Assembly: GCF_001571385.1 (NCBI RefSeq)
Contig: NZ_BCNW01000001.1
Coordinates: forward strand, 1,302,001 to 1,366,000
From: Methanofollis ethanolicus
Lineage (GTDB): Archaea > Halobacteriota > Methanomicrobia > Methanomicrobiales > Methanofollaceae
Reading direction: 5' to 3'
DNA: 64,000 nucleotides
This document shows positions 3,489 through 43,821 of this stretch, piece after piece. The first letter of the stretch is position 1. Every line of letters begins with the position of its first letter. Position numbers and translations under genes: made by a program. The notes below the pieces were generated by a model that saw only the letters and a list, made by a program, of their open reading frames with translations, was not told the DNA's origin and did not search any database.

Positions 3489-4877
3489 TTACGGTCCTTC
3501 CTCCCTGTCCCGGCACTGCCTGACAAATCCTCTGATGAAACCGGCGCTGGCGACCGGGTGGAGATGCGTGTAACTGGCAAGGGTCCGGGCCTTCGTTGCC
3601 CCGTCCTTCTGTCCCGCGATGCCGGTGCCCCGCGAGAGTGCGTAGGCGTAGCGGGTATCGAGGTCCAGGACGACCTCCGAGTAGTGGAACTCATGTCCCT
3701 TGAAAGGCCCGGCACCGAAGGGCGAGGCCTGGCCCGCGACCCCCTCGACATAGCCGAGGGTGCGACGGGACGGCATCAGGCTTTCCCCGGAGAAGACCCC
3801 GCACATCTCGTACGACTCCTCGCGGTCACTCTCCTGCCAGCCCTTCTTGAGGACCAGGCTATCGGTGAGGTACATCAGCCCGCCGCACTCGGCATAGATG
3901 GGGACGCCGTTCCTTGACACTTCGGCAAGGGCCTCCCGCGTCCGGGCGTTCGCCTCCAGGGCCGCGGCATGCATCTCAGGATAGCCGCCGCCCAGGATAT
4001 AGCCATCGGCCTCGGGAAGGGGGTCGTGAATGGGGCTGAAGGTGACGACCTCGGCGCCCTCGGCCCGCAGGACGTCGAAGAGGTCGTTGTAGTAGAAGGT
4101 GAAGGCCTCGTCGTAGGCGACGGCCACACGCACGTCGGTCTCGTGGGTCCGTGCAAACGGCCCGGCCTCGCCGGTGAAGCGATAGTCCTCCATCAGCCCC
4201 TTGAGGGCGTCAAGGTCGACGTAACCGCCGATCACCTCCTTCACCGCCTCGATGCGGTCGAGGAAGTCGCCGGTCTCCTGCCCCTCGCGGTAGGGGACGA
4301 GGCCGAGGTGGCGCATCGTCAGGCGCATACCCTCGCTCTTCGGGATCGCCCCGACGACAGGGACGCCGCAGAAGTGCTCCACCGCCCTGACCGTCTTCTC
4401 CCTGTGGCCGGGACTCGATATGTTGTTGAGGATCACGCCCCTGATCCGCACGCCGGGGTCGAAGGCGGCAAAGCCTTTCACGATCGCGGCGGCACTCCGG
4501 GTGATGCTCCGGGCGTCCACGACCAGGACGACAGGGAGGTCGAGGGCCTTTGCGACCGAGGCCGTGCTCCCGGCGTCGCCGATCGCCTCCGCGCCCTCGT
4601 ACAGGCCACGCACTCCCTCGACCAGGGCGATATCGGCACCCTTCGCCCCGTGCTCGAAGACGGCACGCATCTGTCCCGGCGTCATGACGAAACTGTCCAT
4701 GTTCCGGCAGGGGCGACCGGTGACTGCGGTGAGGTACGACGGGTCGATGTAGTCCATCGCCACCTTGCAGGTCTGGACGACGGCGTCCTTCGAGAGGAGG
4801 GCGGCAAGAGCGAGGGTGATGCTCGTCTTCCCGCTACCCGAGCGGTCGCCGGTGACGAGGAGGGCCTTCACGTTCAC
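3489..4877 (-). CDS. cfbB: Ni-sirohydrochlorin a,c-diamide synthase (CfbB)
   Basis: This is a glutamine- and ATP-dependent amidase of the CbiA/CobB family (462 aa). It has an N-terminal P-loop (GDRSGSGKT), the switch-like DYIDPSYLTAVTGRP segment, and a C-terminal class I glutaminase domain with the nucleophile-cysteine block YAECGGLMYL and a late His in a GHEFHYSE segment. CbiA serves cobalamin synthesis; the cfbA-cfbE-cfbD neighbours show the F430 role, amidating the acetate side chains of Ni-sirohydrochlorin. It begins with GTG at 4877 in a GTGA overlap with the cfbD stop, implying translational coupling. Confidence 0.93.
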   Translation of the reverse strand: MNVKALLVTGDRSGSGKTSITLALAALLSKDAVVQTCKVAMDYIDPSYLTAVTGRPCRNMDSFVMTPGQMRAVFEHGAKGADIALVEGVRGLYEGAEAIGDAGSTASVAKALDLPVVLVVDARSITRSAAAIVKGFAAFDPGVRIRGVILNNISSPGHREKTVRAVEHFCGVPVVGAIPKSEGMRLTMRHLGLVPYREGQETGDFLDRIEAVKEVIGGYVDLDALKGLMEDYRFTGEAGPFARTHETDVRVAVAYDEAFTFYYNDLFDVLRAEGAEVVTFSPIHDPLPEADGYILGGGYPEMHAAALEANARTREALAEVSRNGVPIYAECGGLMYLTDSLVLKKGWQESDREESYEMCGVFSGESLMPSRRTLGYVEGVAGQASPFGAGPFKGHEFHYSEVVLDLDTRYAYALSRGTGIAGQKDGATKARTLASYTHLHPVASAGFIRGFVRQCRDREEGP

Positions 4878-5947
4878 TCACCCCCGGCGACGCTCCGCAG
4901 GACGGCGCCGAACTCGCTCTCGACGATCGACCTGACGCCGAGGGTCTTCGGGTGGAGGTCCACCTCGACGACGACCATGGCGTGGCCGAGGTCTTTCAGG
5001 GGCGCCACCTGCCGCGGGCCGTTGGTGACAGAGATCGTCTCGATGCCGGCGGTGTACTCCTGCGGCACGGCATGGGGCACGCCGACCAGAAAGGCGAAGT
5101 CGGGTCTGATCTCCCGGAGGCGTTCGCCGACGGTGTCTCCGTTCGCCCCGTACTCGTCGAGGGCGCCGAGGAGGGCGGGGTCGAGGCCGCGGTCCCGCAT
5201 GCCCGCGAGGACGTTGGCGGCGTCTGTCCGCACCTTCGGGAGGCCGCGGTCTTCGAGGTTTGCGACGTAAGTGATCTCTGCCTCAGGGCAGGCGTCGTGG
5301 AGGGCGATGAGTTCGTCGGCAAACATGTACGCCGTCTCCTTCTTGGCGTTCATGACGGCGACGCCCTTCTTCCCGCTCCGGGCGAGGGCGACGAGGCGGC
5401 GGGCGGCGAGGTGTTTGAGGTCGCCGCGCGAGGGTTCGATGTACGGTTTCGAGGCGGCGCCCCGCAGGCGTTCGACCTCGTTTGCGGCCGCAAGCAACTG
5501 CTTCTGCCTCTCAAGTTCGTCGGCGCTGATCCACCCGGCCTCCGCGGCCGGTTCGAGGGCGGCGATCACCCCCTGGATGTTCTCCCTGAACCCGGCGTGA
5601 ACGTCGATCCCGATCGTCGGCGTCGTGACGCCGGAGGAGTCGATCGCCGCCTTCAGGTCTTCGCCGATGATCATCGAGACGCAGGTGCCGACGACCGCCA
5701 TCCTCTTCGGGTGAAACTCCTTCTCCGCCTCTCTCAGCACCCGTTCGAGAACGGTCTGGCCGCCGAAGATGAACTCGTTGTCGGCGAGCGAGGTGGTCAG
5801 GACCCGCATCCCGTCCTCTTCGAGGAGGCGGGCGTGCTTGAACGAGCACCCGGAGGGGCCGTGGAGAATGGCGACGTCCACCTCCAGGTCGCGGGCGGTG
5901 TACAGGGCCGCTACAATCGAACTGGGCCGTGGTTGAATATAGTGCAT
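4874..5947 (-). CDS. cfbD: Ni-sirohydrochlorin a,c-diamide reductive cyclase, catalytic subunit (CfbD)
   Basis: This is a nitrogenase NifD/NifK-like protein of 357 aa. With the NifH-like CfbC it carries out the six-electron reduction and cyclisation to 15,17(3)-seco-F430-17(3)-acid. Candidate cluster-ligand cysteines sit in GPSGCSFKHARL (about residue 34) and GTCVSMIIGEDL (about residue 88), matching the family. The start at 5947 is chosen because GGAGGTAA lies just upstream and the protein begins with the conserved MHYIQPRPSS. The ribosome-binding site overlaps the cfbE stop. No cfbC is present in the window, so the reductase partner must be encoded elsewhere. Confidence 0.93.
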   Translation of the reverse strand: MHYIQPRPSSIVAALYTARDLEVDVAILHGPSGCSFKHARLLEEDGMRVLTTSLADNEFIFGGQTVLERVLREAEKEFHPKRMAVVGTCVSMIIGEDLKAAIDSSGVTTPTIGIDVHAGFRENIQGVIAALEPAAEAGWISADELERQKQLLAAANEVERLRGAASKPYIEPSRGDLKHLAARRLVALARSGKKGVAVMNAKKETAYMFADELIALHDACPEAEITYVANLEDRGLPKVRTDAANVLAGMRDRGLDPALLGALDEYGANGDTVGERLREIRPDFAFLVGVPHAVPQEYTAGIETISVTNGPRQVAPLKDLGHAMVVVEVDLHPKTLGVRSIVESEFGAVLRSVAGGE

Positions 5948-5948
5948 C

Positions 5949-7118
5949 TTACCTCCATGTCTTGACGGCGAGGATGATGGTCCCTCCGTCTGCGCGTGTT
6001 TCTGCAATTGCATACCCCTCGTCCAGGTTCAGGGCAGGGGTGCCGGCAAGGTCGGGGTAGTCCCCGACAAGCACAACCTCGTCGGGACTGATCGCACGGA
6101 TCGCCGCCGCCACCTCCTTCTCGGGAAAACCCTCGCAGATGGTCTGCCCCTCTGTCCCGATGACCAGGACGAACGGGGCCCGACCACCGAGGGAGCGGGC
6201 ATAGGCGGCGGCGTCGACGGCGACTTCCCGGCACGCGCCGCTGCTCGCGACGTCGACGACCAGGGTGCCGCCCTTCCACGAGACTGCCATCCTGCCGGGC
6301 AGCGGCCGGAAGGACGCAAGCCCTGCCGGATCCGCGTCGAGGAGGCAGGCCGCCGCCGCGGCGATCTGGAGGGGCGTCCGGTAACCCCGGAGAGCGAGGA
6401 GGGGATTTTCGAACGACCCTTCGATGTCGCCGTATCTGTAGGTGCATACCGTTCCTTCGACCGCGGCGATCTCGCCGGCGTTGCGGGCGGACGGAACGCT
6501 CACTCCCGGCGGGACGAGCGCCTGCGGCGCCATCGCAAGGGAGCGCACCTTCTCAGCAAGGGCGTGTTTCGTCCCGGCGGCGAAGAGGTAGTCGTCCCCT
6601 GAGGTGAGGACTGCAAGGTCGCCCGCCCCGGAGACGCCGAGCGACTCCTCGGCGACGCACCATCCGCCGATCTTTTTTGCCTCCGCGGCGGCGGCGAGCG
6701 TCGAGGCAGGGGTGATCGAGCGTTTCCCGAGGGGGCGCCGCTCAGGATAGACAAAGGTACCCATCGAGGTGTGGAGGACGCCGGGGCCCGGGAGGACGTG
6801 GGCGAGGGCGGTTGCCGTCGTCGTCTTACCGCGCGTGCCGGTGATCTCAACGAAGGGCGACGGCCTCTTCCCTGCAAGGAGCATGGCCACCGCCTCGTGA
6901 TGGGTAACGGCCCGCGGCGCCGCCCTGAGAAGGGGGTGGGCCGGGTCGAGGTGGACCGGAGCGACGACGAGGTCGTAGCGCCTCCGCGCGGCCTCCTCCG
7001 CGGGTATCCCCTCGATCCCCCGGTAGACGTCCACCGCATCGACCTCGTGGCCTGCAACAGCAAGCGCCTCCGCAAGGACGGCGCCACCGTGGATGGTGTC
7101 GAGGACGAGTATCTTCAT
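5949..7118 (-). CDS. cfbE: coenzyme F430 synthase (CfbE)
   Basis: This Mur-ligase-like protein (389 aa) performs the last step of F430 synthesis, ATP-dependent closure of the six-membered carbocyclic ring F. It has the Mur P-loop ITGTRGKTTTATALAHV (about residues 93-110) and a C-terminal ligase lobe containing VDVASSGA and VLVIGTEGQTICEG segments. It starts at ATG 7118, 6 bp after cfbA, and ends where the cfbD ribosome-binding site begins. Other Mur ligases are typically 430-500 aa; the shorter length and operon position support CfbE. Confidence 0.92.
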   Translation of the reverse strand: MKILVLDTIHGGAVLAEALAVAGHEVDAVDVYRGIEGIPAEEAARRRYDLVVAPVHLDPAHPLLRAAPRAVTHHEAVAMLLAGKRPSPFVEITGTRGKTTTATALAHVLPGPGVLHTSMGTFVYPERRPLGKRSITPASTLAAAAEAKKIGGWCVAEESLGVSGAGDLAVLTSGDDYLFAAGTKHALAEKVRSLAMAPQALVPPGVSVPSARNAGEIAAVEGTVCTYRYGDIEGSFENPLLALRGYRTPLQIAAAAACLLDADPAGLASFRPLPGRMAVSWKGGTLVVDVASSGACREVAVDAAAYARSLGGRAPFVLVIGTEGQTICEGFPEKEVAAAIRAISPDEVVLVGDYPDLAGTPALNLDEGYAIAETRADGGTIILAVKTWR

Positions 7119-7124
7119 GCCATC

Positions 7125-7529
7125 TCAGGCTTTCGCGTTGAGCGCCACCTCGGCGTTCTTGACCATCAGGTCGGCGAGGAGGGGGTCGCCGCCGATCGGG
7201 TCGGCATAGAGGAGGGGGATGGCGCCGGAGGCGTGAGCGAAGCTGCCCTTCTTCCCGCCTTCAGGGAGGCCGAGGAGTTCGGGAATGTCCTGGAGGATGT
7301 GGACGCCCTTTGCGAGGAAGAGGGGGACGACGACGAGACGGTCGATTTCGTCCTCCTTGAAGAGGGCGAGGGTCTCCTCGACCGAGGGCTGGTTCATGCT
7401 CATGAAACCGGGGCGGACGAGGAACTCAGGGTGTTTTTCCGCGATGATCGCTGCTGTGCTCTCGATGAGTTCTTTGTTGTAGGGGAGTTTGCTGCCGTGG
7501 CCGACAAGTAACAATCCGGTTCTCTTCAT
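7125..7529 (-). CDS. cfbA: sirohydrochlorin nickelochelatase (CfbA)
   Basis: This is a short archaeal CbiX-type chelatase (134 aa) that inserts Ni(II) into sirohydrochlorin, the first committed step of F430 synthesis. The first metal-binding histidine is in LLVGHGSKLPYN and the second in LFLAKGVHILQDIP, the standard CbiX(S) pair. The single half-length domain is expected to act as a homodimer. The start at 7529 is the ATG beginning MKRTGLLLVGHG; longer frames upstream are unsupported. It is the first gene of a cfbA-cfbE-cfbD-cfbB operon. Confidence 0.93.
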   Translation of the reverse strand: MKRTGLLLVGHGSKLPYNKELIESTAAIIAEKHPEFLVRPGFMSMNQPSVEETLALFKEDEIDRLVVVPLFLAKGVHILQDIPELLGLPEGGKKGSFAHASGAIPLLYADPIGGDPLLADLMVKNAEVALNAKA

Positions 7530-7550
7530 ATGGTACTGTGTACTACCTTT

Positions 7551-7561
7551 ACTCTTTAAAA
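7551..7561 (-). promoter_or_regulatory. TATA box of the F430 operon
   Basis: The minus strand reads TTTTAAAGAGT about 27 nt before the cfbA ATG. At the usual archaeal spacing transcription would begin at or within a few bases of the ATG, so the operon message is probably leaderless. No Shine-Dalgarno sequence precedes cfbA, which fits. Confidence 0.5.
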
Positions 7562-7606
7562 GTATTACCGATTGGTTTTTCGCTGCCATGTCCACATTGA
7601 ATACAG

Positions 7607-7965
7607 ATGGGTGATTTCGAGCGGGACATTGTCCACTGCGTCAACGCATTTTTCGAGGGCCATGCCCTCCAGGGTTTTGCCTACCGCCTCAAACAGCACA
7701 AGTACTCGACGCAGTACGTCGACGTCCTCGTCGACTCCCTCGACCCGCGGTATTACTGCGCCATCGAGTGCAAGTTCCTCAAAGGGAAGAAGATCTACTT
7801 CTCCCGGCACTTCCACGAGGACAGATGCGGCGTCCACCAGGTCGATGCGATCACCGGCTTCCTCGGGCGGAAGGGCGACGGGGTTACCTCGCGGTGGAGT
7901 TTCGGGGCGGGAGCGGCCGGAAGAACGAGGCCTACCTGATGCCCTGGGAGACCCTCCTCACGTAA
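7607..7965 (+). pseudogene. Holliday-junction-resolvase-like nuclease, frameshifted
   Basis: The first frame gives about 90 residues that resemble small archaeal restriction/Hjc-fold nucleases: a VDVLVDS aspartate block, then the ExK-type CAIECKFLKGKK motif, then HQVDAITGFLGRKGDG. At about 7885-7895 the conserved continuation moves to the next frame (YLAVEFRGGSGRKNEAYLMP, ending at the TAA at 7965). A -1 (or +2) shift in the GGGG run rejoins a coherent protein of about 118 aa. It is either a real frameshift mutation, programmed recoding, or a sequencing error in the G run. The assignment rests on motif shape only. Confidence 0.6.
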
Positions 7966-8099
7966 TGGGGGTCGGAGGCCGGGATCGCCATCGGCGATTT
8001 TTCCTCAGGGATACAGCTGGAACGCCAGAGTGATGCCTATATTCTCAATAGTCTTTAACAAAAGGGCTTTGAGATGTGAGGGCAAATATTGAGGGAAGC

Positions 8100-9236
8100 A
8101 TGATCGAGTGTTACGAGCGCTGCGGACTGATCATCAACGACCAGGTGATGAAGACGCCGGTGGTCATCGCATCAATGGCCGGGGTGACCGACGCCGCCTA
8201 TGTGCTGGCCAGAAAGGAGCATATCGGCGCCGCGTTCATCGGCGGCTACTCTATCGACGAAGAGACGATGGAGGCGAGCAGGGCGATGGCGGCCGACGGA
8301 CGGCCCGAGTTCCTGTACGACGACCCCGTGGCAGAGTTGAAGGCACAGGTCGCCGCCCTGCAGGGAAGCGGGGTCGTCACCGGCCTGAACCTGCGGGGGA
8401 GCAGTCCCGCCTCTTATGCGGCCATCGCCGATGAGATCGGCGATGCGGTCGTGTACGAGGTCGACGCACACTGCCGCCAGCCTCCGATGACGGCGCTCGG
8501 GTGCGGTGAAGCACTGCTCAGGGAGCCCCGGCGCCTCGCGGAGATTATCAGGGCGCTCAAGGCGCGGGACGTGACGGTCTCGGTGAAGGTCAGGGCCGGG
8601 GTCGCCGCCGACGACCGCCGTCTTGCCCGCCTCCTCTGGAAGGCCGGGGCCGACATCATCCACGCCGACCTGATGGACTTCGGCTACGCCCGACTGCGGC
8701 AGATCAGGAATGCCTGTCCCCTTACGCTCATTGCGAACAACTCGATCACCTCCTTCGACCGTGCGATGGAGATGTTCGCCCACGGGGCCGATATGGTCTC
8801 TATGGCCAGGCGGTCCGACGAGCGGACCCTTGCCGGGATCGATGCCGCGATCCAGAGGAAGGCCGAGGAGAGCGGGTGGTACAACGCCCCGAAACAACTC
8901 TGCCGCGGCGGGGATGTGCGGTCCCTTGCTTTCTGCTGCATGCCGGTGAAGCACTGTCCCCTGATCCCCTTCCTGGAGAGTATAGGGCTCTCCCGCGAGG
9001 ACTACATGCAGATCAAGACAGAGGCGGTGGCAGGGACGCCGATCGCAGGGGGGAAGACAACGTGTTTCGGTTCCCTTGCCTTCTGCTGCAAGTCGAGCTC
9101 CCCCTGCATGCTCAGGGAACTCTCCATGAAGGAGGCAGGACTTTCCAGCGCGGAGTACATGCGGCAGAAGCGCCGGCTTGCCGGAGATATCATGGAGAGG
9201 GTCTTTGATGGAGTGCCGGACGAAGACGAGATCTGA
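8100..9236 (+). CDS. Dus-like TIM-barrel protein with methanogenesis marker 9 domain
   Basis: The first about 270 residues look like a dihydrouridine-synthase-type FMN barrel: TPVVIASMAGVTDAAYV at the start, the ALGCGEALL and KVRAGV blocks in the middle, and HGADMVSMAR near the phosphate-binding end. The C-terminal about 100 residues are cysteine-rich in two similar modules (FCCMPVKHCPL and FCCKSSSPCM, about residues 280-345), the signature I associate with methanogenesis marker domain 9. The actual reaction is unknown. ATG 8100 follows GAGGGA; a GTG at 8076 would add eight residues. It overlaps the next gene by 29 bp. Confidence 0.8.
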   Translation: MIECYERCGLIINDQVMKTPVVIASMAGVTDAAYVLARKEHIGAAFIGGYSIDEETMEASRAMAADGRPEFLYDDPVAELKAQVAALQGSGVVTGLNLRGSSPASYAAIADEIGDAVVYEVDAHCRQPPMTALGCGEALLREPRRLAEIIRALKARDVTVSVKVRAGVAADDRRLARLLWKAGADIIHADLMDFGYARLRQIRNACPLTLIANNSITSFDRAMEMFAHGADMVSMARRSDERTLAGIDAAIQRKAEESGWYNAPKQLCRGGDVRSLAFCCMPVKHCPLIPFLESIGLSREDYMQIKTEAVAGTPIAGGKTTCFGSLAFCCKSSSPCMLRELSMKEAGLSSAEYMRQKRRLAGDIMERVFDGVPDEDEI

Positions 9237-18787: not shown

Positions 18788-20116
18788 ATGGATATCGAGG
18801 GATTTGTCCGCAGGGAACTCTCTGCGGGCAGGGGCGAAGACGACGTCGTCGCAGCCCTCAAATGTGAGATCCTCAGGATCAAGACAGACGCTTCCCCTGA
18901 ATATGTCGAGACATTCGCAAAAGCCGTCCTCGAAGAGGTGAAAAATACCACCGGCCTTACCGGCGATCTCTTCGCCTTCGAACATGCCGGTGTCACCATG
19001 GGAGAGTTCGGCGTCGGGTCCCGCGGGAAGGGCGACTTTTTCGCCCACAGGCAGTTCCCGCGGATCATCGGGAAGGCCGCAGCCACGGTCGGCGTCGACG
19101 AGATGGACGACGCGGGGGCCGTTGCGGCGAACGGGAAATATATCATCACCACCGTCGACGGCATGCACTCCCGCCTCTCCGACTTCCCCTTCCTCGCCGG
19201 TTTCCATGTGACGCGGGCGACCCTGCGTGACGCCTACGTGATGGGGGCAAAACCCGTCGCCCTCCTCTCCGACATCCATGTCGCGGACGACGGCGACGTC
19301 GCCAAGATCTTCGACTACACCGCCGGGATCGCCGCCGTCGCCGAGGCGATGAACGTTCCCCTGGTCACCGGGTCGACCCTCCGCATCGGCGGGGACATGG
19401 TCCTCGGCGACCGCATGACCGGGTGCGTCGGGGCCGTCGGCGTCGCCGACCACCTCACCGCCAGGAAAGAGACGCGGCCCGGCGACGTCCTCCTCATGAC
19501 CGCGGGCGCGGGCGGCGGCACCATCGCAACGACGGCGCTCTACTTCGGCTACCACGAGGTCGTCGAGGAGACGATCAACCTCCACTTCCTCAAGGCCTGT
19601 GAGGCCCTCCTGAAGAGCCCCGTCCTCGCCCACATCCACACCATGACCGACGTCACCAACGGCGGACTGCGGGGCGACGTCTATGAGATGGCCGAGACCG
19701 CAGACTGCCGGATCGTCGTCGACGAGGAAAACCTCAGGAAACTTGTCGAGCCGAAGGTGCTCGCCATGCTCGACGCCCTCCAGATCGACTACCTCGGCGT
19801 CTCCCTGGACGCCCTCCTCATCGTCGTGCCGCCGGAGCACGCGGAGGAGGTCATGGCCGTCGTCCGCTCGGCCGGCGTCCCGATCGAGCCGATCGGCCAC
19901 GTCGAGGAGGGGCCGGCCACCTCGGTCCTCATATCTGGCGGTGAAGAGCGCGACTTCCAGCCGCGGTTCAGGGAATCGGCCTACACCCCAGTGAAGAAGG
20001 TCGTGGACACGGAACCCCGCGACTTCGACGAGATGAAGGAGAAGGTCAGGGCCGCCGCGGACGCGGCGATAGAAAAGAAGATGCGGGTCATCGCCCGGCT
20101 CCGGAAGAGCGAGTGA
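18788..20116 (+). CDS. AIR-synthase-related (PurM/HypE-superfamily) protein
   Basis: This 442-aa protein belongs to the ATP-binding PurM/SelD/HypE superfamily. The N-terminal AIRS domain includes GDFFAHRQFPRIIG, DDAGAV and TTVDGMHSRLSDFPFLAG; the C-terminal domain includes PGDVLLMTAGAGGG, HTMTDVTNGGLRGDVYEM and GVSLDALLIVVP. These motifs form the phosphate/ATP cleft in relatives. An extra N-terminal helical region (about 80 aa) and a C-terminal tail set it apart from HypE. Methanogens carry several such paralogues, including methanogenesis marker 2; the exact substrate is unknown. Confidence 0.8.
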   Translation: MDIEGFVRRELSAGRGEDDVVAALKCEILRIKTDASPEYVETFAKAVLEEVKNTTGLTGDLFAFEHAGVTMGEFGVGSRGKGDFFAHRQFPRIIGKAAATVGVDEMDDAGAVAANGKYIITTVDGMHSRLSDFPFLAGFHVTRATLRDAYVMGAKPVALLSDIHVADDGDVAKIFDYTAGIAAVAEAMNVPLVTGSTLRIGGDMVLGDRMTGCVGAVGVADHLTARKETRPGDVLLMTAGAGGGTIATTALYFGYHEVVEETINLHFLKACEALLKSPVLAHIHTMTDVTNGGLRGDVYEMAETADCRIVVDEENLRKLVEPKVLAMLDALQIDYLGVSLDALLIVVPPEHAEEVMAVVRSAGVPIEPIGHVEEGPATSVLISGGEERDFQPRFRESAYTPVKKVVDTEPRDFDEMKEKVRAAADAAIEKKMRVIARLRKSE

Positions 20117-20559
20117 AGGGTACCCCCTTCCTCTTCGGAGTTTCCCGTTCACTCTTCTTCGGCTCCATTGGGAGCAACGAGCACTAACTAACTTAAGAGG
20201 TTCTTCAGGTCTTCGCTGTGCGAACGAAGTGAGCAGGAGAGAGCCATTAGGCTTCCCCGAGTAGTCCCGCGGCGGGCCAGAGGGGAAGGCAAGGGTCCGC
20301 ACATCCTCTCAGAGAACTTGGAGGACACATCCACCAGAGGGATTCTCCAGGGCCGAAGGAGGATATAACTCGATCTCTTTTGTTCGAAATAAGCGAACAT
20401 TTTAAGTATGGTTTTCTGCGTGTGTGGATACTCTCTATTTGCCCACTAAGAAGCCAAAATTGGGAACACGCCATTCAAGTTGCGATTGTGCCCGATATTT
20501 GTCGTAATATCTTCCGGAATAGGATGAGTGGTGGGAAATATCAGCAAATGGTGATGTGA
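20117..20559. other. intergenic region with a dispersed-repeat copy
   Basis: No gene is seen. The part 20190-20375 carries a copy of the dispersed family (GTGCGAACGAAGTGAGCA near 20218). An inverted repeat TGTTCG-N7-CGAACA at 20381-20399 followed by TTTT could be a terminator or an operator. The end holds the ribosome-binding site of the exported-protein gene (GGTGATGTGA). Confidence 0.5.
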
Positions 20560-21294
20560 ATGGATCATACGAGAATGAAAATTTTCATGGCGACTCTGCT
20601 GTTAGTAAGCAGTTTATGTTTGCCAGCATCTGCGTGGAGTTACAGCATAACCAACATCATGAACTATGATGATCCCGGGACAACGGATCTTACGAACGGA
20701 AACGCCGTCTGTGGCATTGTCAGTCAACGCCTGCAGGGGGCGGGATGGACAGAGTTTTTCTCGCATAGTGATGCAAGCGCCGTACGGGCCGATTTTGGAA
20801 CAGATAGTGGAGGATATCAGGGTCTAGACGGTGCACATTTCCACTGGCATTATGGGCATGGAGTTATGCCAGGCACCATGTCAAGCATCTGCCTCTCGAA
20901 CTATCCCTACGGATATGTGAATCGAGATCATGTGTACAAGAAATGGGATAATGCCAATAAATGGACGGTCATATATTCGTGTCTGGTCCTCAAGGATCGC
21001 CAATGGGGCAACGCTCTCAAGACAGCGCACGGGATACTGGGTTTTGAAACAACCGTCACGGGGACAACGTCACTTCCGACCAGTTTCTTTTCATACGCGA
21101 TTGATAACGATTACTGCATGTCAAGCGCGTGGTATTACAGCACGCTTAACTCGTTCGGATCTTCTGTGACGGCAGTTGCCATCGCCGACACCCAGCTGCA
21201 AATGACAAGCGATCAGTTGCCGGGGCAGGGTCATCTTGAGCCTGACGAGGATCCGGATGACAACAATGGGTATTACAGTTCCTGGGCATGCTAG
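20560..21294 (+). CDS. exported protein, DUF6345-like
   Basis: This 244-aa protein has a signal peptide (MKIFMATLLLVSSLCLPASA, about residues 6-25) and a mature domain with several cysteines and a striking HFHWHYGHG motif (about residue 96), followed by VNRDHVYKKW. The HxHxHxxH-like block could bind a metal. It resembles secreted proteins annotated DUF6345 in archaea, but I hold this loosely. It is first of four same-strand genes ending with a membrane-anchored regulator. Codon use is AT-richer than the core genes. Confidence 0.65.
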   Translation: MDHTRMKIFMATLLLVSSLCLPASAWSYSITNIMNYDDPGTTDLTNGNAVCGIVSQRLQGAGWTEFFSHSDASAVRADFGTDSGGYQGLDGAHFHWHYGHGVMPGTMSSICLSNYPYGYVNRDHVYKKWDNANKWTVIYSCLVLKDRQWGNALKTAHGILGFETTVTGTTSLPTSFFSYAIDNDYCMSSAWYYSTLNSFGSSVTAVAIADTQLQMTSDQLPGQGHLEPDEDPDDNNGYYSSWAC

Positions 21295-21308
21295 GGAGGA
21301 GATGAAAC

Positions 21309-22070
21309 ATGAAGTATCTGGGAGTTTTAATTTTTGGAATCATTGTATGCAGCGTGGGCCTCGGTCTCTTTGCGGAGGTAGCCCATTCGAGTTTGCATCC
21401 TGCAGAGTCACTTCAGGGACAGGATCTGAATATTGTTATGGCGAGTGCCCTCCCCTCCGGCCCCGAAACTGCGCCGAATTACAGGGTGATCGACTGCGAG
21501 ACCTTCCAGGAGATCAAGGAACCCAACATCATGGCAGCAAGAGAAAACCTGCCAACTGAGCAGGAGGGTCTGACCATTGCAGAGAAAATTCTTGGTGCAT
21601 ACAGCGGCATCCCCGACGATGCCGTCGTTACCCACGCGGAAACGATATATCTTCGAGAGTATAACACGACGAGTCTTGAAGAGACCAGAAAAACACCCAT
21701 GTGGGTGCACATAATCTTCGGGCAGGAACTGGACGGTATGCCTGTTGTCGGGCCCGGGGCAGAGATCATCGTCGATCTCGGTGAAAATGGCAAGGTGCTC
21801 CATGTCCAGAAGATATGGCGGACGGTAGAAAAGGCTGAAAATGTCCCGCTCATCACTGCGGGTGCTGCGCTCGAAAAACTCAGGAAGGGAGAAACCATCA
21901 ACAGACCACTATCGCTGACAGGAACTATCGAGATCAACCGGGTCACGCTGGGCTATTATGCTGAAGAACCAGACATAACCCAGGAGTATCTCACCCCGGC
22001 ATGGATATTCTACGGAACAGATGGTGCAAATGCCTCCGAAGTTCTCTGTGTGAGTGCCATCGATGGATAA
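21309..22070 (+). CDS. exported or membrane-anchored protein of unknown function
   Basis: This 253-aa protein starts with one hydrophobic segment (residues 4-24) acting as signal or anchor, followed by an extracytoplasmic domain of alternating strands. The segment GMPVVGPGAEIIVDLGENGKVL is like the conserved strand-turn of PepSY/YycI-type inhibitory domains. GGAGGA 7 nt upstream supports the ATG at 21309, and the gene lies 14 bp after the DUF6345-like gene. It could be a chaperone or inhibitor of the neighbouring secreted products; that is inference from fold resemblance only. Confidence 0.6.
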   Translation: MKYLGVLIFGIIVCSVGLGLFAEVAHSSLHPAESLQGQDLNIVMASALPSGPETAPNYRVIDCETFQEIKEPNIMAARENLPTEQEGLTIAEKILGAYSGIPDDAVVTHAETIYLREYNTTSLEETRKTPMWVHIIFGQELDGMPVVGPGAEIIVDLGENGKVLHVQKIWRTVEKAENVPLITAGAALEKLRKGETINRPLSLTGTIEINRVTLGYYAEEPDITQEYLTPAWIFYGTDGANASEVLCVSAIDG

Positions 22071-22389
22071 ACTCCTCTCTCTTCTTTTTGAACTGCGGGA
22101 AATGACGCTCCCGCAGGCAGGGGTGCTTCTGGGTGCCCTTTGGGGTTTTCTGGGAGTCATATGGCTTGACTTCTTTATTATGGATCCGTCGCCATTTTCG
22201 GAAGGGGGGTACTTCCTCGCGCTACCTATCACACGCTCTGTCGAGATCTTCTATGCATCTGTAGACCTGTTCATGCCGGGAATGCATATCCCGTTCATCA
22301 TGAACAACATTCTCTACCCCGTCATAGGTGCGTTCATCGGCGGTATCGCAGGTCTCGTTCTCGATATCTTCTCGGGCAGACACCCATGA
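22063..22389 (+). CDS. small membrane protein, two to three helices
   Basis: This 108-aa protein has hydrophobic stretches at about residues 17-38, 45-60 and 80-100 and no recognised family. The ATG at 22063 lies inside the last codons of the preceding gene (ATGGATAA overlap), so translation is coupled. Conservation with this cassette would support a joint role. Confidence 0.6.
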   Translation: MDKLLSLLFELREMTLPQAGVLLGALWGFLGVIWLDFFIMDPSPFSEGGYFLALPITRSVEIFYASVDLFMPGMHIPFIMNNILYPVIGAFIGGIAGLVLDIFSGRHP

Positions 22390-22426
22390 CAGATATTTTT
22401 TCAGACATTAGGGATTATTTCGCAAA

Positions 22427-22975
22427 ATGTATATGCAGAGCAGGTTTAATCGAACAGATCGAGGCATACTATTGTCAGATGAGATTCTCCTGGACATCAC
22501 CACATTTGAAGCACTATCGTCCGAGACTCGCATATCTATCCTGAAAAATCTCGAAGCACGCCCTATGACGGTCTCCGAGATTTCAAAAATCCTCAATATC
22601 CCGAAGTCCTCTGCCTACACCCACCTTGCAAAAATGCTTGCATCAAACCTCGTAAGGCGCAAAGAAAACGATCACAAGTGGGTTTATTATGAGATATCGT
22701 ATAAAGGGTATGCGCTCCTGCATCCATCGAAAATACAGCAGGTGAAGATCATCCTCACCACCGCACTCGGGATAGGGGCGTGTGGACTCGCCGTACTGGG
22801 TGTCGATATTCTCAGCAATCTTCCGTCTCCTGAGGCCGGTGTCGCTCTGGGATCTCTTGCCGCTTCATCTCTCTTTACGACAGGTCTCATGCTCCTTGCG
22901 ACAGGATCGTTGCTCTTTGTTCTTGCCGTGTTCCTTTTGATGTCACGGTCTGACTTTATCCCGATCGGTGATTAG
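22427..22975 (+). CDS. membrane-anchored winged-helix (ArsR-like) regulator
   Basis: This 182-aa protein has an N-terminal winged helix (FEALSSETRISILKNLE, then MTVSEISKILNIPKSSAYTH as helix-turn-helix, then HKWVYYEISYKGYALLHP as the wing). Two membrane helices follow (about residues 107-130 and 143-175). A second protein of the same design is at 43128-43658. DNA binding with membrane tethering suggests direct sensing of an envelope or extracellular signal. A TATA-like TATTTTTTC about 30 nt before the ATG and no Shine-Dalgarno suggest a leaderless message. Confidence 0.8.
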   Translation: MYMQSRFNRTDRGILLSDEILLDITTFEALSSETRISILKNLEARPMTVSEISKILNIPKSSAYTHLAKMLASNLVRRKENDHKWVYYEISYKGYALLHPSKIQQVKIILTTALGIGACGLAVLGVDILSNLPSPEAGVALGSLAASSLFTTGLMLLATGSLLFVLAVFLLMSRSDFIPIGD

Positions 22976-23457
22976 GAAGACGGGGATAGGGTTTGCACAC
23001 AGGACCGCACCCAGAGGTCTCTGGAGAATCAAGAACAGATCCGGCCAATACTATGAAAGCAGTTCAAAATTGTGATCGAGGAACTCTCCAGAATTATTAT
23101 CCTTTGTCCCTTGATTGGCAAAAGGCTGCAACAACGACATTGAAAAATCAACTCTGGAGAGATGTTGAATGTTCGATGGCGACGGCCCCCTGATCATTCT
23201 CCTGAAATCTCCCGCAAGAGTTCGCACCTCCACCCCCTGACAGATAAACGATCTGCTCAGAAACCACAAATATATTATGCACCATATTTAGTGGTGGTGA
23301 TGCAAAATTCAGGGGCTTGCCTCGATGCGATGCCGGGAATTATCGATGAGATGTTCCCGGCACTAAACCCCCCCATAGGGAGTATTTCCCCACTCTAAAG
23401 GGAAATCATCCTTTTTGAGTTTGGCATCCCGGAACAAAAATTGCAGAGGTGAAGAAA
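22976..23457. other. intergenic region upstream of the secreted protease
   Basis: No convincing gene is seen; short open frames lack domains and ribosome binding sites. The stretch contains an AT-rich promoter-like patch near 23270-23290 (AAATATATTATGC) and a GAGGTGA ribosome-binding site at 23446-23452. Its unusual length before a regulated-looking gene leaves room for operators. Confidence 0.45.
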
Positions 23458-24648
23458 ATGAAAAGATTAACCGGAATTCTGTCGGTCCTGTTTATCCTGG
23501 CCTTGCTGGCCTCGGCATTTGTGGGACCTGCCGCAGCGAAACAGAATGACAGTGAACAGAACTACGTAGATGAACGTACAGATCTGACACCTGAAGAACG
23601 TGCTGATGTCATTGAGGAACTGAGATCCCATGAAAAAATTCTGGGTATTTATGGAAGTCTTCCGGACTTTAGCGATACAAAGACCTCACACCCCTGGATC
23701 TCATGGTATAGTCAGTTGGATCACTTTACTGACGATAACTTTGATTCTTTTGCAAAACCTCGCCTGTATCCCAAGGGACCGGTTATCGGCTATGGATATG
23801 ACGTTGAAGGATACATCGATGTAGGTATTCCGGAAGACTGGCCCGAAGATAACATTACGGCCACCATGGAGGAACTGTACGAAATCCTCGACAAAAAGGG
23901 GAAAGATGCAGGCTTCGAGAGTATCCCCGTAAAATTCAGGAGTGTCTCTGTCCGTCCGGACAGTCTTGTCCTCTACAGTGCGAGTAACAAATCTCGACCG
24001 ATAACTGGGGATATACAGATTCAGACAATCTTAGACAGAATTCGACCATTAATTGGAGGTATGCAGATTCAGACACTCTTAGGGAGTGATATAGCAAGTT
24101 CAACACTCGGGTGGGCTGCACAGACCTCTTCTGGCACGCGGGGTTATGTTATTTCAGCGCATTGTTCGGATGGGAGTGGAGAAACTGTCTATCAACCGAC
24201 GACCGGTTCTTCAAATGCCTGTGGGTCTGTAGGCGCTGATCCAGGATGGCCATATTCATCTTCTTACGCTGATGCAGCCTGGGTGCCATACAGCAACGTT
24301 GCAGCAAAAATTCACTCGCAGGGTGTGGATCAGAGTGTAAAAGGACATTATGACCCTTGGCCTGGCCTAACTGTTTTCAAATCCGGAAGAACAACGGGCA
24401 CGACCTCTGGATCAGTCCAAAGAAAGGATATTGTATTCTATCCATCTACACAGCGTTACTTGTATGATCAGTACTTTGCTTCATACACTGCTGAGCCTGG
24501 AGACAGCGGATCACCGGTTTATCACGTTGAGTCCGACCACGATAGGATAATTGTGGGAATTCTTTCTGGTAGTTTTTGTGGCGAAGAGTATTTTTCACCG
24601 GTATCCGGAGTGGAAACAGAACTGGGTGTCCTGCCCTTAACCAGTTGA
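23458..24648 (+). CDS. secreted chymotrypsin-like (S1-family) serine protease
   Basis: This 396-aa exported protein has a signal peptide ending near PAAA (about residue 27), a pro-region of about 180 residues, and a trypsin-like domain. The triad is visible: His235 in VISAHC, Asp272 in SYADAAWVPY and Ser350 in AEPGDSGSPVY. The order and the short catalytic domain resemble streptogrisin-like proteases. Residues 180-208 hold a duplicated RPxxGxxQIQTxL unit near the pro/mature boundary. ATG 23458 is chosen for its GAGGTGA site. Codon use is AT-rich, suggesting acquisition. Cysteines at about 236, 255 and 374 could form disulfides. Confidence 0.85.
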   Translation: MKRLTGILSVLFILALLASAFVGPAAAKQNDSEQNYVDERTDLTPEERADVIEELRSHEKILGIYGSLPDFSDTKTSHPWISWYSQLDHFTDDNFDSFAKPRLYPKGPVIGYGYDVEGYIDVGIPEDWPEDNITATMEELYEILDKKGKDAGFESIPVKFRSVSVRPDSLVLYSASNKSRPITGDIQIQTILDRIRPLIGGMQIQTLLGSDIASSTLGWAAQTSSGTRGYVISAHCSDGSGETVYQPTTGSSNACGSVGADPGWPYSSSYADAAWVPYSNVAAKIHSQGVDQSVKGHYDPWPGLTVFKSGRTTGTTSGSVQRKDIVFYPSTQRYLYDQYFASYTAEPGDSGSPVYHVESDHDRIIVGILSGSFCGEEYFSPVSGVETELGVLPLTS

Positions 24649-24955
24649 GAAAACTCATATCACTTAAAAATTGGCTCTGCTTATCATCCTGCGTTATTCA
24701 GAGGAGAAGTATTCAGGTCCAGAAGAGTAAGCACAGATCCTTCATCCTACCACGATCCTACGCAGGTATCACTCATGGAGAGCAGAAGCCCTGATCACCC
24801 CAGAGGGCCCGCGCATCCCTCGCCGGGCAGGAGGGTTTTTCCAGGGCCATCGACGCCCTGATCTTTGCGCCACTCCGGAAATGGCGCTATTATGAGCGTT
24901 ATTCTGGATATCATTTCCGAAGAAATATATACAATCCTGACATGCAGGGAATTGT
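24649..24955. other. intergenic region, no gene seen
   Basis: This 307-bp stretch holds no supported ORF. Its end carries the TATA region of the 42-residue protein. Confidence 0.4.
24921..24931 (+). promoter_or_regulatory. TATA/BRE-like element before the 42-residue gene
   Basis: CCGAAGAAATATATAC matches an archaeal purine-rich BRE followed by a TATA box about 25-35 nt before the ATG at 24956, predicting a very short leader that still includes AGGGA. Confidence 0.5.
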
Positions 24956-25084
24956 ATGGCGAAGAACCAGTGTGCAGATGCAAAGAACCCCAACAACCCG
25001 GCGCAGAAAGCGGCAGCGGACAACAGGGCGAATCAACTCAACCCGAACAACAAGGCCACGAAGTCGGGCAAGGACAAGAAGTGA
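24956..25084 (+). CDS. small Asn/Ala/Lys-rich protein (42 aa)
   Basis: ATG 24956 to TGA 25084 encodes 42 residues. Two similar NPNN units (KNPNNPAQKAAADNRA and NQLNPNNKATKSGKDKK) form an internal repeat, and the protein is basic, hydrophilic and predicted disordered or helical. AGGGA lies about 6 nt upstream and a good TATA box stands at about -30. The clean repeat, codon use and promoter make it more than a chance frame. It looks like an abundant small structural or nucleic-acid-binding protein, but I know no established function. Confidence 0.65.
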   Translation: MAKNQCADAKNPNNPAQKAAADNRANQLNPNNKATKSGKDKK

Positions 25085-25509
25085 GCAGGGGAAAAAACAC
25101 AATCCATTTCTCAAAAAATCGCAAAAATCCTCCATTTTTGGTACGGGGATGAGGGATCATCCCCGAACCCTCCGTCATACCATGCAGGGATCGGGAGAGA
25201 ATATCATGTTCGGGTTGATATCTTCTTGAATTCCCTGAAGCATAGTGCGAAACCCCCGCCTTCCCCTACCTCTCTGCCGGGGGACTGACGCCCCCGGACC
25301 CCCGAAACAGGATAGGGTCATGGAAGAGAAACCAGAGATCCTGACGAAGGAGATTGCCCTCCACCCCCTCTCGCAATGAGGGGGGATCGGGGGGTGAAAC
25401 CCCCCGGACAAGACGCCAGAACAGAATTTTTCAGAACCGAATGTGAGTCCTTTCATCGGCGTGCATGAAGGTTCGGATCAGTTTTGGGATGACCCCATGA
25501 ATAAAAAAA
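25085..25509. other. intergenic region with GC-rich inverted repeats
   Basis: No gene is seen. Strong stems are CCGGGGG-N7-CCCCCGG at 25277-25297 and GGGGGGT-GAA-ACCCCCC at 25389-25405. They resemble GC-rich palindromes in the other repeat-bearing gaps (e.g. near 59915-59945) and may be terminators for the converging genes or members of a dispersed repeat family. Confidence 0.5.
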
Positions 25510-26238
25510 TCATCTCTCCTTCTTCCCGCTCGCGCAGACATTGAAGGCAAGGTACGAGAGTTTCTTCTCGACGAAAGGCTCCGCCTTCCTGACGGCATCG
25601 AAGATGGGCTTTTTCATGTTGACGTGGGCGAAGGAGCAGCGGTGGACCTTCAGATCGGTAAACCCGGCCGCCGAAAGGAGTTCACGCATCTGCTGATCCG
25701 AGTAGTAGTGCTCGCCAAAGCTCCCGACCCCGATCCGACTCCAGTGCGCTTTCTCGCCGAGACGGTAGATCGCGGGAAGGATCGACGTGAAGACATTGTG
25801 GCCGAGGGTGCAGATAGCGATGCGGCCGCCGGGACGGAGGACGCGGTACGCCTCGGAGAGCATCGCCTCCGGGTCGGGGACATAACTGAAGGCAAGGATG
25901 CTCGATACCGCATCGAAGGACGCGTCCCTGAAAGGAAGACGGTCGGCCGTCCCTGCCACGACATCGTCGAGGTGGTTCTGGTGACGGGCCGCCTTTACCA
26001 TCTCAGGCGAGAGGTCGAGCCCTACCGCCGTCCCGCCGCCGGCGTTGAGATAGTGCTGCATGAACAGGCCCGTCCCGCAACCGAGGTCGAGGAGGGCGCC
26101 CCCCTTCGGAAGGCAGTTCATCACGTGGTCCCTGATATGGCCGTGGTACCGGTTCCCGACGTCGCCACCATAGCGGCTGTCATAGATCTCGGCCACACCG
26201 TCGTAGTGTTTCTGAATCTTCTCATAATCGCGCTTCAG
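25510..26238 (-). CDS. class I SAM-dependent methyltransferase, probable CTG start
   Basis: This is a UbiE/Methyltransf_11-type protein: LLDLGCGTGLFMQHY is the SAM-binding motif I, GLDLSPEMVKAA motif II, and LPFRDASFDAVSSILAFSYV motif post-I. No ATG begins the homologous N-terminus; an internal GTG at 26196 would remove KRDYEKIQKHYDGV, which looks like natural sequence. A CTG at 26238 is placed 5 nt after a perfect GGAGGTG and overlaps the stop of the upstream RFC-like gene (CTGA), giving 242 aa. The substrate is unknown. This is the last gene of the long operon. Confidence 0.75.
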   Translation of the reverse strand: MKRDYEKIQKHYDGVAEIYDSRYGGDVGNRYHGHIRDHVMNCLPKGGALLDLGCGTGLFMQHYLNAGGGTAVGLDLSPEMVKAARHQNHLDDVVAGTADRLPFRDASFDAVSSILAFSYVPDPEAMLSEAYRVLRPGGRIAICTLGHNVFTSILPAIYRLGEKAHWSRIGVGSFGEHYYSDQQMRELLSAAGFTDLKVHRCSFAHVNMKKPIFDAVRKAEPFVEKKLSYLAFNVCASGKKER

Positions 26239-41028: not shown

Positions 41029-41658
41029 TCACCCCCCTGCTTTCGTCTTCGGCGTGACTGTCGTGTACACCCTGACCCAGTCGTCGTAGCGGTCATAGCC
41101 GACGTACACTGTCTCCCCCGTCTCTTTCCCGAACTCCCAGAAGTACGGCCCGATCGGTTGCTCAGAGTTCATCTCCACCCAGCGGGCGGTCCAGTTCCCG
41201 TCGCGGTACCCCGCACTGCGGAGGGCGTCCTCTGCATCGGCAAGGGACGGGCGCCGCCATGCCGTCAGGTCGTCGGCACCCAGCGTCCAGGACCCGATCT
41301 TCGGACCCCCGTCGTCCCGGAGATACACCCGCGCGATCGCAACGGCACCGCCGTCCCGGGTGAGCGGGACAAGGTAATAGCGCGGGGCGCCGTCGGTCAG
41401 GGACCGGACGGTCGCCACGTCCCCCGCGACGGCACCTGAAAGGTCGGGGGCCCGGTCTGGAGGGACGGGTGGGTCCGGCGGTGTGAGAGCCGCATCGACG
41501 ACCGCGGGAATCTCTTCGGAGGGGAGGGTCTCGAAGGAAACGTCAAGTCCCTCTCCGGCCTGAGGGTATGGGAGGAGAAACAGCGTCGCTCCCCCAACCG
41601 TGCACAGCACAGCGATGAACACGGTCGCAAGGGCATAAAAAACTTTTTTTTCGGTCAT
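41029..41658 (-). CDS. exported protein related to the C-terminal domain of the C39-like peptidase
   Basis: This 209-aa protein has an N-terminal membrane or signal segment (VFYALATVFIAVLCTVGGATLF, residues 6-27), a Pro-rich spacer and a domain that matches the last about 200 residues of the adjacent peptidase: YYLVPL versus YYLIPF, ARVYLRDDGG versus ASVFIKNNGT, and FWEFGKETGETVYVGYDR versus FWEFETTTGKTVYVGYNR. The shared domain is therefore a separable unit, perhaps a binding or inhibitory module. A GAGGTGGG site precedes the ATG. Confidence 0.65.
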   Translation of the reverse strand: MTEKKVFYALATVFIAVLCTVGGATLFLLPYPQAGEGLDVSFETLPSEEIPAVVDAALTPPDPPVPPDRAPDLSGAVAGDVATVRSLTDGAPRYYLVPLTRDGGAVAIARVYLRDDGGPKIGSWTLGADDLTAWRRPSLADAEDALRSAGYRDGNWTARWVEMNSEQPIGPYFWEFGKETGETVYVGYDRYDDWVRVYTTVTPKTKAGG

Positions 41659-41688
41659 GGCCCCACCTCAAAAAATAATCAGAGGGTA

Positions 41689-42891
41689 TTAACTCCCTCC
41701 CCCCCGTGTTGGCTGGGTTAACTCATCATAGACCTGAATCCCGGTCCGGTTGTAGCCGACATAGACGGTCTTTCCGGTCGTTGTTTCGAACTCCCAGAAC
41801 GGATGACACTCCGACCAGCTCTGAACGCATGGTTTCCAGACCACGCGTGGGTGTTCGGGGATGACACCCTGATACTCTTTTTCATCCAGGGCTTTCAGGG
41901 CCTCCTCCCGGGTCGGAAGGAACCGGAATGAACCGGAATAATCAGAAGGCAGCCCGACGCATCCGCCGAAATCGGCGATGGTGCCGTTGTTCTTAATGAA
42001 GACGGAAGCGATCACCCTGGTCGTACCGTCTTTTTCAAAAGGTATCAGGTAGTAATCGCGCCACCCATTCAGTGAATGAACGTAGATCATCTCTCCGGCC
42101 TTGCAGCCTTCAAGTTCTTCCTGGAAACAACCCCACCTTTTCATCTGGTCCCATGCAAATCCAGAGATGTCCGTGTCTTCTGTGAGAGGGATGTCGTCCT
42201 CAGAATCGTCCATCAAACGCCAGTTCTCTGTTTCACCGGCATAATTCGGAGTCGATCTCTCCCAGTATCCCTGTACTGTGATATATCGGTCATACCACCG
42301 GCTCTGTTCAGAACCGGTGAAAGATACGGGTGTGAAATTGTTCATCCAGTCGTCGACAGTGAGATATCCATTGATAGGCTGAAGCAGCCAACTATCCGGG
42401 TCATGAACCCATAACCCGTTGACCGAGTAGACATGTCCCCCATATTCAAAATAATTGACACCCTTCACCAGCATCCAGTGATTACCGTTTTCTGTTAAAG
42501 AAGCAGACGGAATACCACGGTTGACAATGTCAATCGCCTGCCCTATTATGGCAGCATCTGCATGATCCCATGAATGCTCGTCGACTACAAGGTTACTCAC
42601 ATAGTGTTGTACACAATTTGCCAGTCCCACTGGATCAGTGTACCACACAGACCCCTCAAGATTGTGACTTCGGATATACTGATATAACGTATCCTGACTG
42701 ATCAAATCTCCGTGATAGTCAATCCACATCTGAGCCGATGCAGGACCACAATACCACTCTGTTTCCTGTCCATGGTAGGGAACTGCAAGGTTTACGGCAG
42801 TGTCCGCTGCCAGGACCGGATAGACCAGGAAACTTCCAGCAAGAAGAGCAAAACAGAGTATGCATGATTCTTTCTTCCATGATTGTTTCAT
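41689..42891 (-). CDS. secreted C39-like cysteine peptidase
   Basis: This 400-aa exported protein has a signal peptide ending near VLAA (about residue 29) and a papain-fold domain: Cys48 in TEWYCGPASAQMW, His138 in NGNHWMLVKGV and Asp164 in LWVHDPD. These match the catalytic triad of peptidase C39-like proteins. The C-terminal 200 residues form a second domain shared with the neighbouring 209-aa protein. ATG 42891 follows GGAGGT by 7 nt. The gene is AT-richer than the flanking core genes. Confidence 0.8.
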   Translation of the reverse strand: MKQSWKKESCILCFALLAGSFLVYPVLAADTAVNLAVPYHGQETEWYCGPASAQMWIDYHGDLISQDTLYQYIRSHNLEGSVWYTDPVGLANCVQHYVSNLVVDEHSWDHADAAIIGQAIDIVNRGIPSASLTENGNHWMLVKGVNYFEYGGHVYSVNGLWVHDPDSWLLQPINGYLTVDDWMNNFTPVSFTGSEQSRWYDRYITVQGYWERSTPNYAGETENWRLMDDSEDDIPLTEDTDISGFAWDQMKRWGCFQEELEGCKAGEMIYVHSLNGWRDYYLIPFEKDGTTRVIASVFIKNNGTIADFGGCVGLPSDYSGSFRFLPTREEALKALDEKEYQGVIPEHPRVVWKPCVQSWSECHPFWEFETTTGKTVYVGYNRTGIQVYDELTQPTRGGGS

Positions 42892-43127
42892 GAACCATAC
42901 CTCCCAAACACCCCGAACGATCGTTTGCAACGGCTGCCCCCGGCACACCCGATCATCTCCAGGGATCTGCAAAGGTCACTCGGCCCGCACGTTCAGGGGC
43001 AGACACGACCCGCGCAGATTTCGGATGCCATCCGGGCATCCTCACCGATGGTTCGGTCTTTGAATGCCATGAAATCGGGGAAAGTGTTCGATCCCGATCG
43101 AACGGATTCGAAAAATATATATTAGAA

Positions 43128-43658
43128 CTATGAAATGTCCTGATCGATCCTACGGCGCTTTCGCCACCGGAGATATGCATACCCCACGAGGACGCTGCCG
43201 ATCAGCGTCAGTGCGAGCCCGAGGATCAGCAGATCCCACGGCGGGGCCTCCTGTACCTGAGCGCCTCCGCCCCCCAACATGGGGATTCCGGGGGTTTCAT
43301 CGGACAACAACACAACCAGAAACTTCGCCAGGGCAGCGATTCCCCCGACGAATGTCACCAGTGCGGTGGCGAGGAGTATCCTGATCCTGACGCCGTCGTG
43401 TGGATACAGGAGAGCATGCCCCTCCGGGGTGAGGGCGTAGTATACCCAGGCATGCCCGTCATCCTCGGCGGCGACAAAACCGGCGTCGACGAGAACACGG
43501 AGGTGATGGTGGACCGTGGACTTTGCCAGGTCAAGGTCGGCGGCCAGTTCGGCGATCGTCATCCTGCGTACATTCAGGTCTTTCAGCATCCTGAGCCTGG
43601 ACTCAGATGCGAGAGCCGTGAATGCGTCCTTCGTCAGGACGACGTCAACCGGGTCCAT
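43128..43658 (-). CDS. membrane-anchored winged-helix (ArsR-like) regulator
   Basis: This 176-aa protein has the same plan as the one at 22427-22975: an N-terminal winged helix (ALASESRLRMLKDLN, MTIAELAADLDLAKSTVHHH, HAWVYYALTPEGHALLYP) and two C-terminal membrane helices (about residues 88-115 and 138-162), ending in a basic RWRKRRR tail. It lies 236 bp upstream of the C39-like peptidase gene on the same strand. AGATATATTA about 25-30 nt before the ATG and no Shine-Dalgarno indicate a leaderless message. Confidence 0.8.
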   Translation of the reverse strand: MDPVDVVLTKDAFTALASESRLRMLKDLNVRRMTIAELAADLDLAKSTVHHHLRVLVDAGFVAAEDDGHAWVYYALTPEGHALLYPHDGVRIRILLATALVTFVGGIAALAKFLVVLLSDETPGIPMLGGGGAQVQEAPPWDLLILGLALTLIGSVLVGYAYLRWRKRRRIDQDIS

Positions 43659-43821
43659 CAAGCAATTGATGAGATCGGTGTAATATATCTATTCCGTTAT
43701 CTTCCGGCAGTCTTCCTGCATATTTTTGCTGGACTGTTCTGGTGATGGTGCATTCTAAACCAATATGCGCGATTTATGACCGATTCATATACGCGTCGGA
43801 AAAAAGAGAGGGGCTCGATCC

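Follow-up and report, generated by a model that had tools for sequence, protein, structure and literature searches.

The question raised by this locus is whether a DNA-binding protein held in the membrane of a methanogen controls the exported proteolysis genes that lie beside it. The locus is a cassette of five genes within a window of 64,000 nucleotides of Methanofollis ethanolicus (contig NZ_BCNW01000001.1, positions 1,302,001 to 1,366,000), the window being the whole stretch of DNA that was analysed. The control of exported proteins in archaea is little understood, and the dozens of genomes in which one regulator family lies beside genes for exported proteases or inhibitors offer a direct way into the problem. 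It is considered fairly probable that the cassette represents an arrangement found repeatedly in archaea, in which a regulator is combined with changeable exported proteolysis genes and controls these neighbours from the membrane. Gene content, the predicted fold and motifs of the first product, conservation of the neighbourhood and an empty insertion site were established by computation; the association of the genes is well supported and the mechanism proposed for it is plausible. Comparisons were made with 199 genomes of the order Methanomicrobiales (handles beginning with G denote genomes and those with L fetched loci), and the cassette and its flanks are laid out as follows.

18788..20116, + strand: left flank, an AIR-synthase-related core gene (present in 177 of the 199 genomes)
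20117..25512, no strand assigned: insertion interval between the convergent core genes (flank coordinates, 101 genomes)
20560..21294, + strand: gene 1, exported DUF6345 protein of 244 amino acids, predicted clan CD cysteine peptidase (Pfam PF19872, E 8e-14; alignments A3 and A6; AlphaFold2 model and fold search)
21309..22070, + strand: gene 2, YycI/PepSY-like partner of 253 amino acids, exported and membrane-anchored (YycI E 1e-5, below cut-off; always adjoins DUF6345)
22054..22389, + strand: gene 3, small membrane protein of 111 amino acids (hydropathy; short relatives beside DUF6345 and partner genes)
22427..22975, + strand: gene 4, transmembrane winged-helix regulator of 182 amino acids, an ArsR-like domain with a two-helix hairpin (HTH_20 E 1e-11; HTH_5 E 9e-11; hydropathy)
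23449..24648, + strand: gene 5, secreted S1 serine protease of 399 amino acids with signal peptide, N-domain and alpha-lytic-type catalytic domain (alignment A4; match of its profile to PDB sequences)
25510..26196, - strand: right flank, a methyltransferase core gene (present in 146 of the 199 genomes)

All five cassette reading frames are open and well formed. For gene 5 the GTG codon at 23449 was chosen as the start, the ATG at 23458 used in the original prediction being possible too. Hydropathy analysis assigned a signal or anchor to the N-terminus of the products of genes 1, 2 and 5, and at least two membrane segments to that of gene 3. Genes 1 to 4 follow one another with a 14-bp gap, a 17-bp overlap (genes 2/3) and a 37-bp gap, and 473 bp separate the regulator gene from the protease gene downstream; this spacing suggests that genes 1 to 4 form a single operon and the protease gene a second unit. 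Frames and hydropathy agree with the original prediction, which described a regulator closing a run of two exported proteins and a small membrane protein; the identification of gene 1 as Pfam DUF6345 and of gene 2 as YycI/PepSY-like goes beyond it.

The regulator possesses an HTH_20/HTH_5 helix-turn-helix (HTH) domain at residues 30-77 (E 1e-11), followed by hydrophobic blocks at approximately 105-132 and 139-181, and this bears out the predicted placing of the DNA-binding domain directly on two membrane helices. Action from the membrane is established for regulators of this class (PMC10269533, PMC6396743), and the available passages of PMC10269533 describe transmembrane transcription regulators (TTRs) as enriched in Methanomicrobia. 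The window protein itself qualifies structurally as a TTR, a single polypeptide carrying both its DNA-binding domain and its membrane segments, and shares with the TTRs of those passages the lack of a kinase or receiver. Its family differs in that the membrane part is a bare two-helix hairpin, that no sensor domain lies outside the cell, and that its regular neighbours are exported proteolysis genes, of which those passages make no mention. It also resembles the archaeal regulators ArnR and ArnR1 of Sulfolobus acidocaldarius in having its HTH at the N-terminus and a pair of membrane helices at the C-terminus. However, ArnR, which governs the archaellum and pili, additionally contains a HAMP-like part and a sensor part (PMC6396743), and the 182 residues of the window regulator are too few for these parts; with no Pfam match beyond the HTH domain and about 10-25 residues between it and the first helix, the protein falls outside the ArnR family. 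A reading of the cassette as a defence system was also considered and set aside, the matches to Csa3/CARF models being only generic winged-helix ones.

Homologues of the regulator were identified as 82 matches (E 1e-12) in 57 of the 199 genomes, and the fetched loci yielded 76 regulators for a neighbourhood analysis. Pfam families, not preselected, were tallied for 146 proteins near the regulators and for 146 encoded at distances above 2.5 kb within those loci. Serpins (14), C39-like peptidases (9) and PepSY proteins (6) were found near the regulators and none of the three in the distant set, which contained two M12 matches. A protease, inhibitor or PepSY-type gene lies within 1.5 kb of 66 of the 76 regulators vs 21% of same-locus control points, a count that is partly circular because its family profiles were built from the regulators' own neighbours. 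The pairing spans several families of the order, and the contacts between regulator and cargo are predominantly direct or divergent. In the regulator tree, cargo types were clustered far more than in shuffles. The enrichment of exported proteins and proteases beside regulator homologues that had been proposed as a check was therefore found in both counts, and extends through DUF6345 to other orders; a lack of any conserved neighbourhood and a preponderance of unrelated neighbours, the outcomes named beforehand as adverse, were not encountered.

The same data bear on the suggestion that the regulator merely travels in variable islands and regulates itself, so that its pairing with proteases would reflect shared hitch-hiking rather than control, given how many secreted proteins these islands contain. 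The insertion site is indeed a variable interval between core genes, and the available passages of a 2014 survey of archaeal dark-matter islands, in which the regulator family is not mentioned, list secreted C39 and PepSY/M4 proteases as abundant (PMC4158269). Hitch-hiking of this kind fits poorly with a serpin, C39 and PepSY excess that is not seen in distant genes of the same loci, with cargo that follows the regulator clade, with the prevalence of direct and divergent contacts and with a DUF6345 link that persists in other orders, and is judged unlikely.

Both flank genes were found on one contig in 101 genomes of the order and are convergent in 100. The gap between them is under 50 bp in 39 of the 101 (for example, 12-25 bp in G022, G003, G009 and G027) and 5.4 kb in the window, where it is filled by the cassette. 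A regulator homologue is present at the site in all 20 genomes with a gap above 2 kb, most of these being relatives within genus g4 and hence not 20 independent events, and in none of the other 81. In g4, which belongs to a different family, the regulator at this same site is mostly accompanied by a serpin and sometimes by a C39-like peptidase. The regulator tree did not decide for or against one ancient insertion common to both genera, as groupings of the window regulator with the serpin/C39, S1 or DUF6345 clades were all unrejected (approximately unbiased test, p 0.64, 0.51 and 0.65, respectively). The GC content is 47-53% across 20-25 kb vs mostly 60-68% in the flanking core genes, as predicted for a region AT-richer than its surroundings, and the acquisition that had been proposed on this ground is supported by the empty sites in sister genomes.

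The full five-gene set is confined to the host genus. The nearest relative, G051, carries the same cassette with approximately 510 bp deleted within the DUF6345 gene and the remainder intact, and G039 carries a decayed copy. The two stretches that match on either side of the deletion in G051 (L147, near 8331-8356) have 17 bp in common at their ends, a pattern like that left when DNA between short direct repeats is lost. Outside the host genus the regulator pairs with the DUF6345 set, or with the serine protease, or with other cargo. What is conserved more widely is the pairing of regulator and exported proteolysis genes. Patchy distribution, empty sites, copies decaying in close relatives and alternative cargo at one site are also what might be seen in microbial conflict, with the exported caspase-like peptidase and the serine protease attacking neighbouring cells and the YycI-like partner or small membrane protein protecting the producer. 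No delivery or immunity family was recognised among the cassette matches, however, and serpins and PepSY proteins are ill-suited to a pure weapon; this explanation is regarded as quite improbable.

Two blocks are conserved in DUF6345, H-x-H-x-G-H-G and W-V-x-x-x-x-C, with H100 and C141 invariant (alignments A3 and A6); to us these blocks resemble the motifs around the His and the Cys of clan CD peptidases. An AlphaFold2 model built from ten sequences (predicted local distance difference test score 77.7; predicted template modelling score (pTM) 0.80) gave the SAVED-CHAT protease as first Foldseek hit, followed by caspases (E 4e-5 and 3e-4). DALI-like Z scores were 17.1 for CHAT, 14.8 for gingipain RgpB, 14.2 for caspase-7, 13.9 for metacaspase and 13.2 for legumain, and these matches of Z 13-17 span 170-190 residues, giving the predicted model a caspase-like fold. 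In the model H100 follows strand 94-98 and C141 follows strand 135-139, so that His and Cys would stand after successive strands, as in these clan CD enzymes. The family differs from them in its sequence identity of approximately 10%, its export and its pairing with a YycI-like protein. DUF6345 is accordingly predicted to be an exported caspase-like (clan CD) cysteine peptidase, an assignment to this fold that is new here, and a domain of unknown function thereby gains a predicted role.

In genus g4 (L142:3649-4338 and relatives) a second exported family with an FNGHG motif and a conserved Cys precedes a PepSY protein; by profile comparison it shows a distant alignment to DUF6345 in which the His and Cys positions coincide (P 4e-5, probability 70%). 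A local expansion was seen in one genome, where ten DUF6345-like matches, some with an internal stop codon, occur in approximately 60 kb (L206; G042:C1:1400000-1462000).

Gene 2 scored 25.7 bits against the YycI profile (PF09648), vs a curated cut-off of 29.7, and YycI matches were obtained for eight of eleven partner homologues (best E 1.6e-9). Profile comparison of the partner (alignment A9) with the PepSY family (A8) showed no kinship. The product of gene 2 resembles YycI of Firmicutes in being anchored in the membrane with its body outside, and its C-terminal domain appears similar; it differs in scoring below the Pfam cut-off and in involving no WalK-type kinase. The YycI-like partner is the constant companion of the DUF6345-version regulator, joined in several loci by the small membrane protein, short relatives of which stand beside DUF6345 and the partner in G009, G008 and G057 and in L209 and L211.

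To find DUF6345 loci beyond the order, the whole phylum was searched and genomes with names were scanned, the genome scan employing alignment A5, which is narrower than the over-diverse A3. DUF6345 adjoins a YycI-like partner in Archaeoglobales- and Methanophagales-type genomes, and is present in Methanosarcina acetivorans (control search). A two-helix regulator of the family studied here was found near 15 of 28 DUF6345 loci outside the order (16 with one weak match), mostly at less than 1 kb, several of the 28 lying on contigs that end too early to judge its presence. In L211 the regulator, an exported protein, DUF6345, the partner and the small membrane protein stand in a row, with the same gene places as in L233. 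Among family f5 loci, L250, L251, L252, L254 and L255 carry DUF6345 and the YycI-like partner within long proteins (up to 1370 amino acids), with no regulator nearby. In L247 (G015; 3512-8664) one DUF6345 gene is followed by four partner genes in tandem.

The secreted S1-family protease with an intact triad that had been predicted was recovered: H238, D275 and S353 occur in S1 order inside conserved family blocks (alignment A4), and a profile of 18 relatives matched alpha-lytic protease (E 5.5e-10) and streptogrisin B (E 1e-6) among PDB sequences. Gene 5 resembles these enzymes in its catalytic domain, its triad and the N-terminal region before the mature start, presumed to lie around R199-P-L-I-G-G and conserved like the triad. 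It differs in its N-domain, which was not recognised as any pro-region family, gave no Pfam match and also occurs without the protease domain, alone in many genomes and sometimes adjoining a regulator; this stand-alone form could be a free-standing pro-region or an inhibitor. A model of the protease from its single sequence had a pTM of 0.19 and was not used. The S1 catalytic part was counted by eye in approximately 20 of the 199 genomes, which roughly agrees with the rarity of such proteases claimed for methanogens. Five genomes with divergently oriented regulator and S1 protease genes have an inverted repeat resembling TGAAGACA/TGTCTTCA 35-44 bp before the protease start codon (three perfect over at least 6 bp, two with one mismatch), a position at which a repressor could act.

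In the mechanism proposed, the regulator would bind DNA while in the membrane and would control its own operon together with the neighbouring protease or inhibitor gene. Because it possesses no outside sensor domain, it would probably receive its signal by way of the membrane, with the YycI-like partner and the small membrane protein as senders that monitor the exported protease or the cell envelope. In Firmicutes, YycI exerts its effect on a kinase in the membrane; the partner may play a comparable part here, conveying to the regulator the condition of the exported peptidase or envelope.

Several observations weigh against such control, in addition to the circularity of the neighbour count. 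No motif was common to the regions upstream of 20560 and 23449, where one had been looked for on the strength of the original prediction: shared 9-mers numbered 0 vs 0.66 expected by shuffling, and only unrelated single dyads were present. With no common motif in the window, all the steps of regulation (DNA binding, targets, sign and signal path) are ones that we infer. Most of the approximately 150 serpins in the order have no adjoining regulator, the link therefore running from regulator to cargo and not from serpin to regulator, and many f5 DUF6345 loci have no such regulator nearby. One-component membrane-tethered regulation of exported products, as first proposed, is thus partly supported.

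The co-encoding of a protease with a membrane-tethered factor also brings to mind regulated intramembrane proteolysis, in which an exported or membrane protease would cut the hairpin and free the winged helix to the cytoplasm; the available passages of PMC10269533 cite regulated proteolysis of membrane-bound TcpP. Hydropathy predicts an outside loop of only 10-20 residues or so, with both protein ends inside, and some regulators have an inhibitor, for instance a serpin, as their cargo; cleavage of the regulator is considered highly improbable.

If the regulator does act from the membrane on its neighbours, the recurrent pairing suggests a simple built-in control of digestion outside the cell and predicts regulatory targets in genetically tractable relatives. 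It is further proposed, tentatively and as possible rather than probable, that the DUF6345 peptidase, the YycI-like partner and the bare regulator form an undescribed archaeal sensing unit for surface proteolysis or damage, that the regulator family is re-used for many exported proteases and inhibitors in methanogens, and that the DUF6345 version also occurs in Archaeoglobales and ANME-1-type archaea. Membrane-bound one-component regulators are known, and their coupling to extracellular proteolysis appears unreported: no link of the regulator family to exported proteolysis, and no mention of DUF6345 or its assignment to clan CD, was found in a literature search that lay outside subscription journals and preprints.

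The host genome encodes three further regulators of the same family, one of them inside the window.

43128..43661, - strand: second regulator of 177 amino acids (profile match G000:C1:1345281-1345646; HTH_5 E 9e-12)
41689..42972, - strand: exported C39-like peptidase of 427 amino acids beside it (Peptidase_C39_2 E 3.6e-7)

A 209-residue exported protein with no Pfam match accompanies these two (41029-43661, - strand), and this locus is likewise AT-rich (GC 0.49 at 42-43 kb). Lastly, a frame of 42 codons (MAKNQCADAKNPNNPAQKAAADNRANQLNPNNKATKSGKDKK) was observed at 24956-25084 (+ strand), between the protease and methyltransferase genes; among the fetched loci it was matched solely in G051 (L147), with 94% identity across 32 residues.

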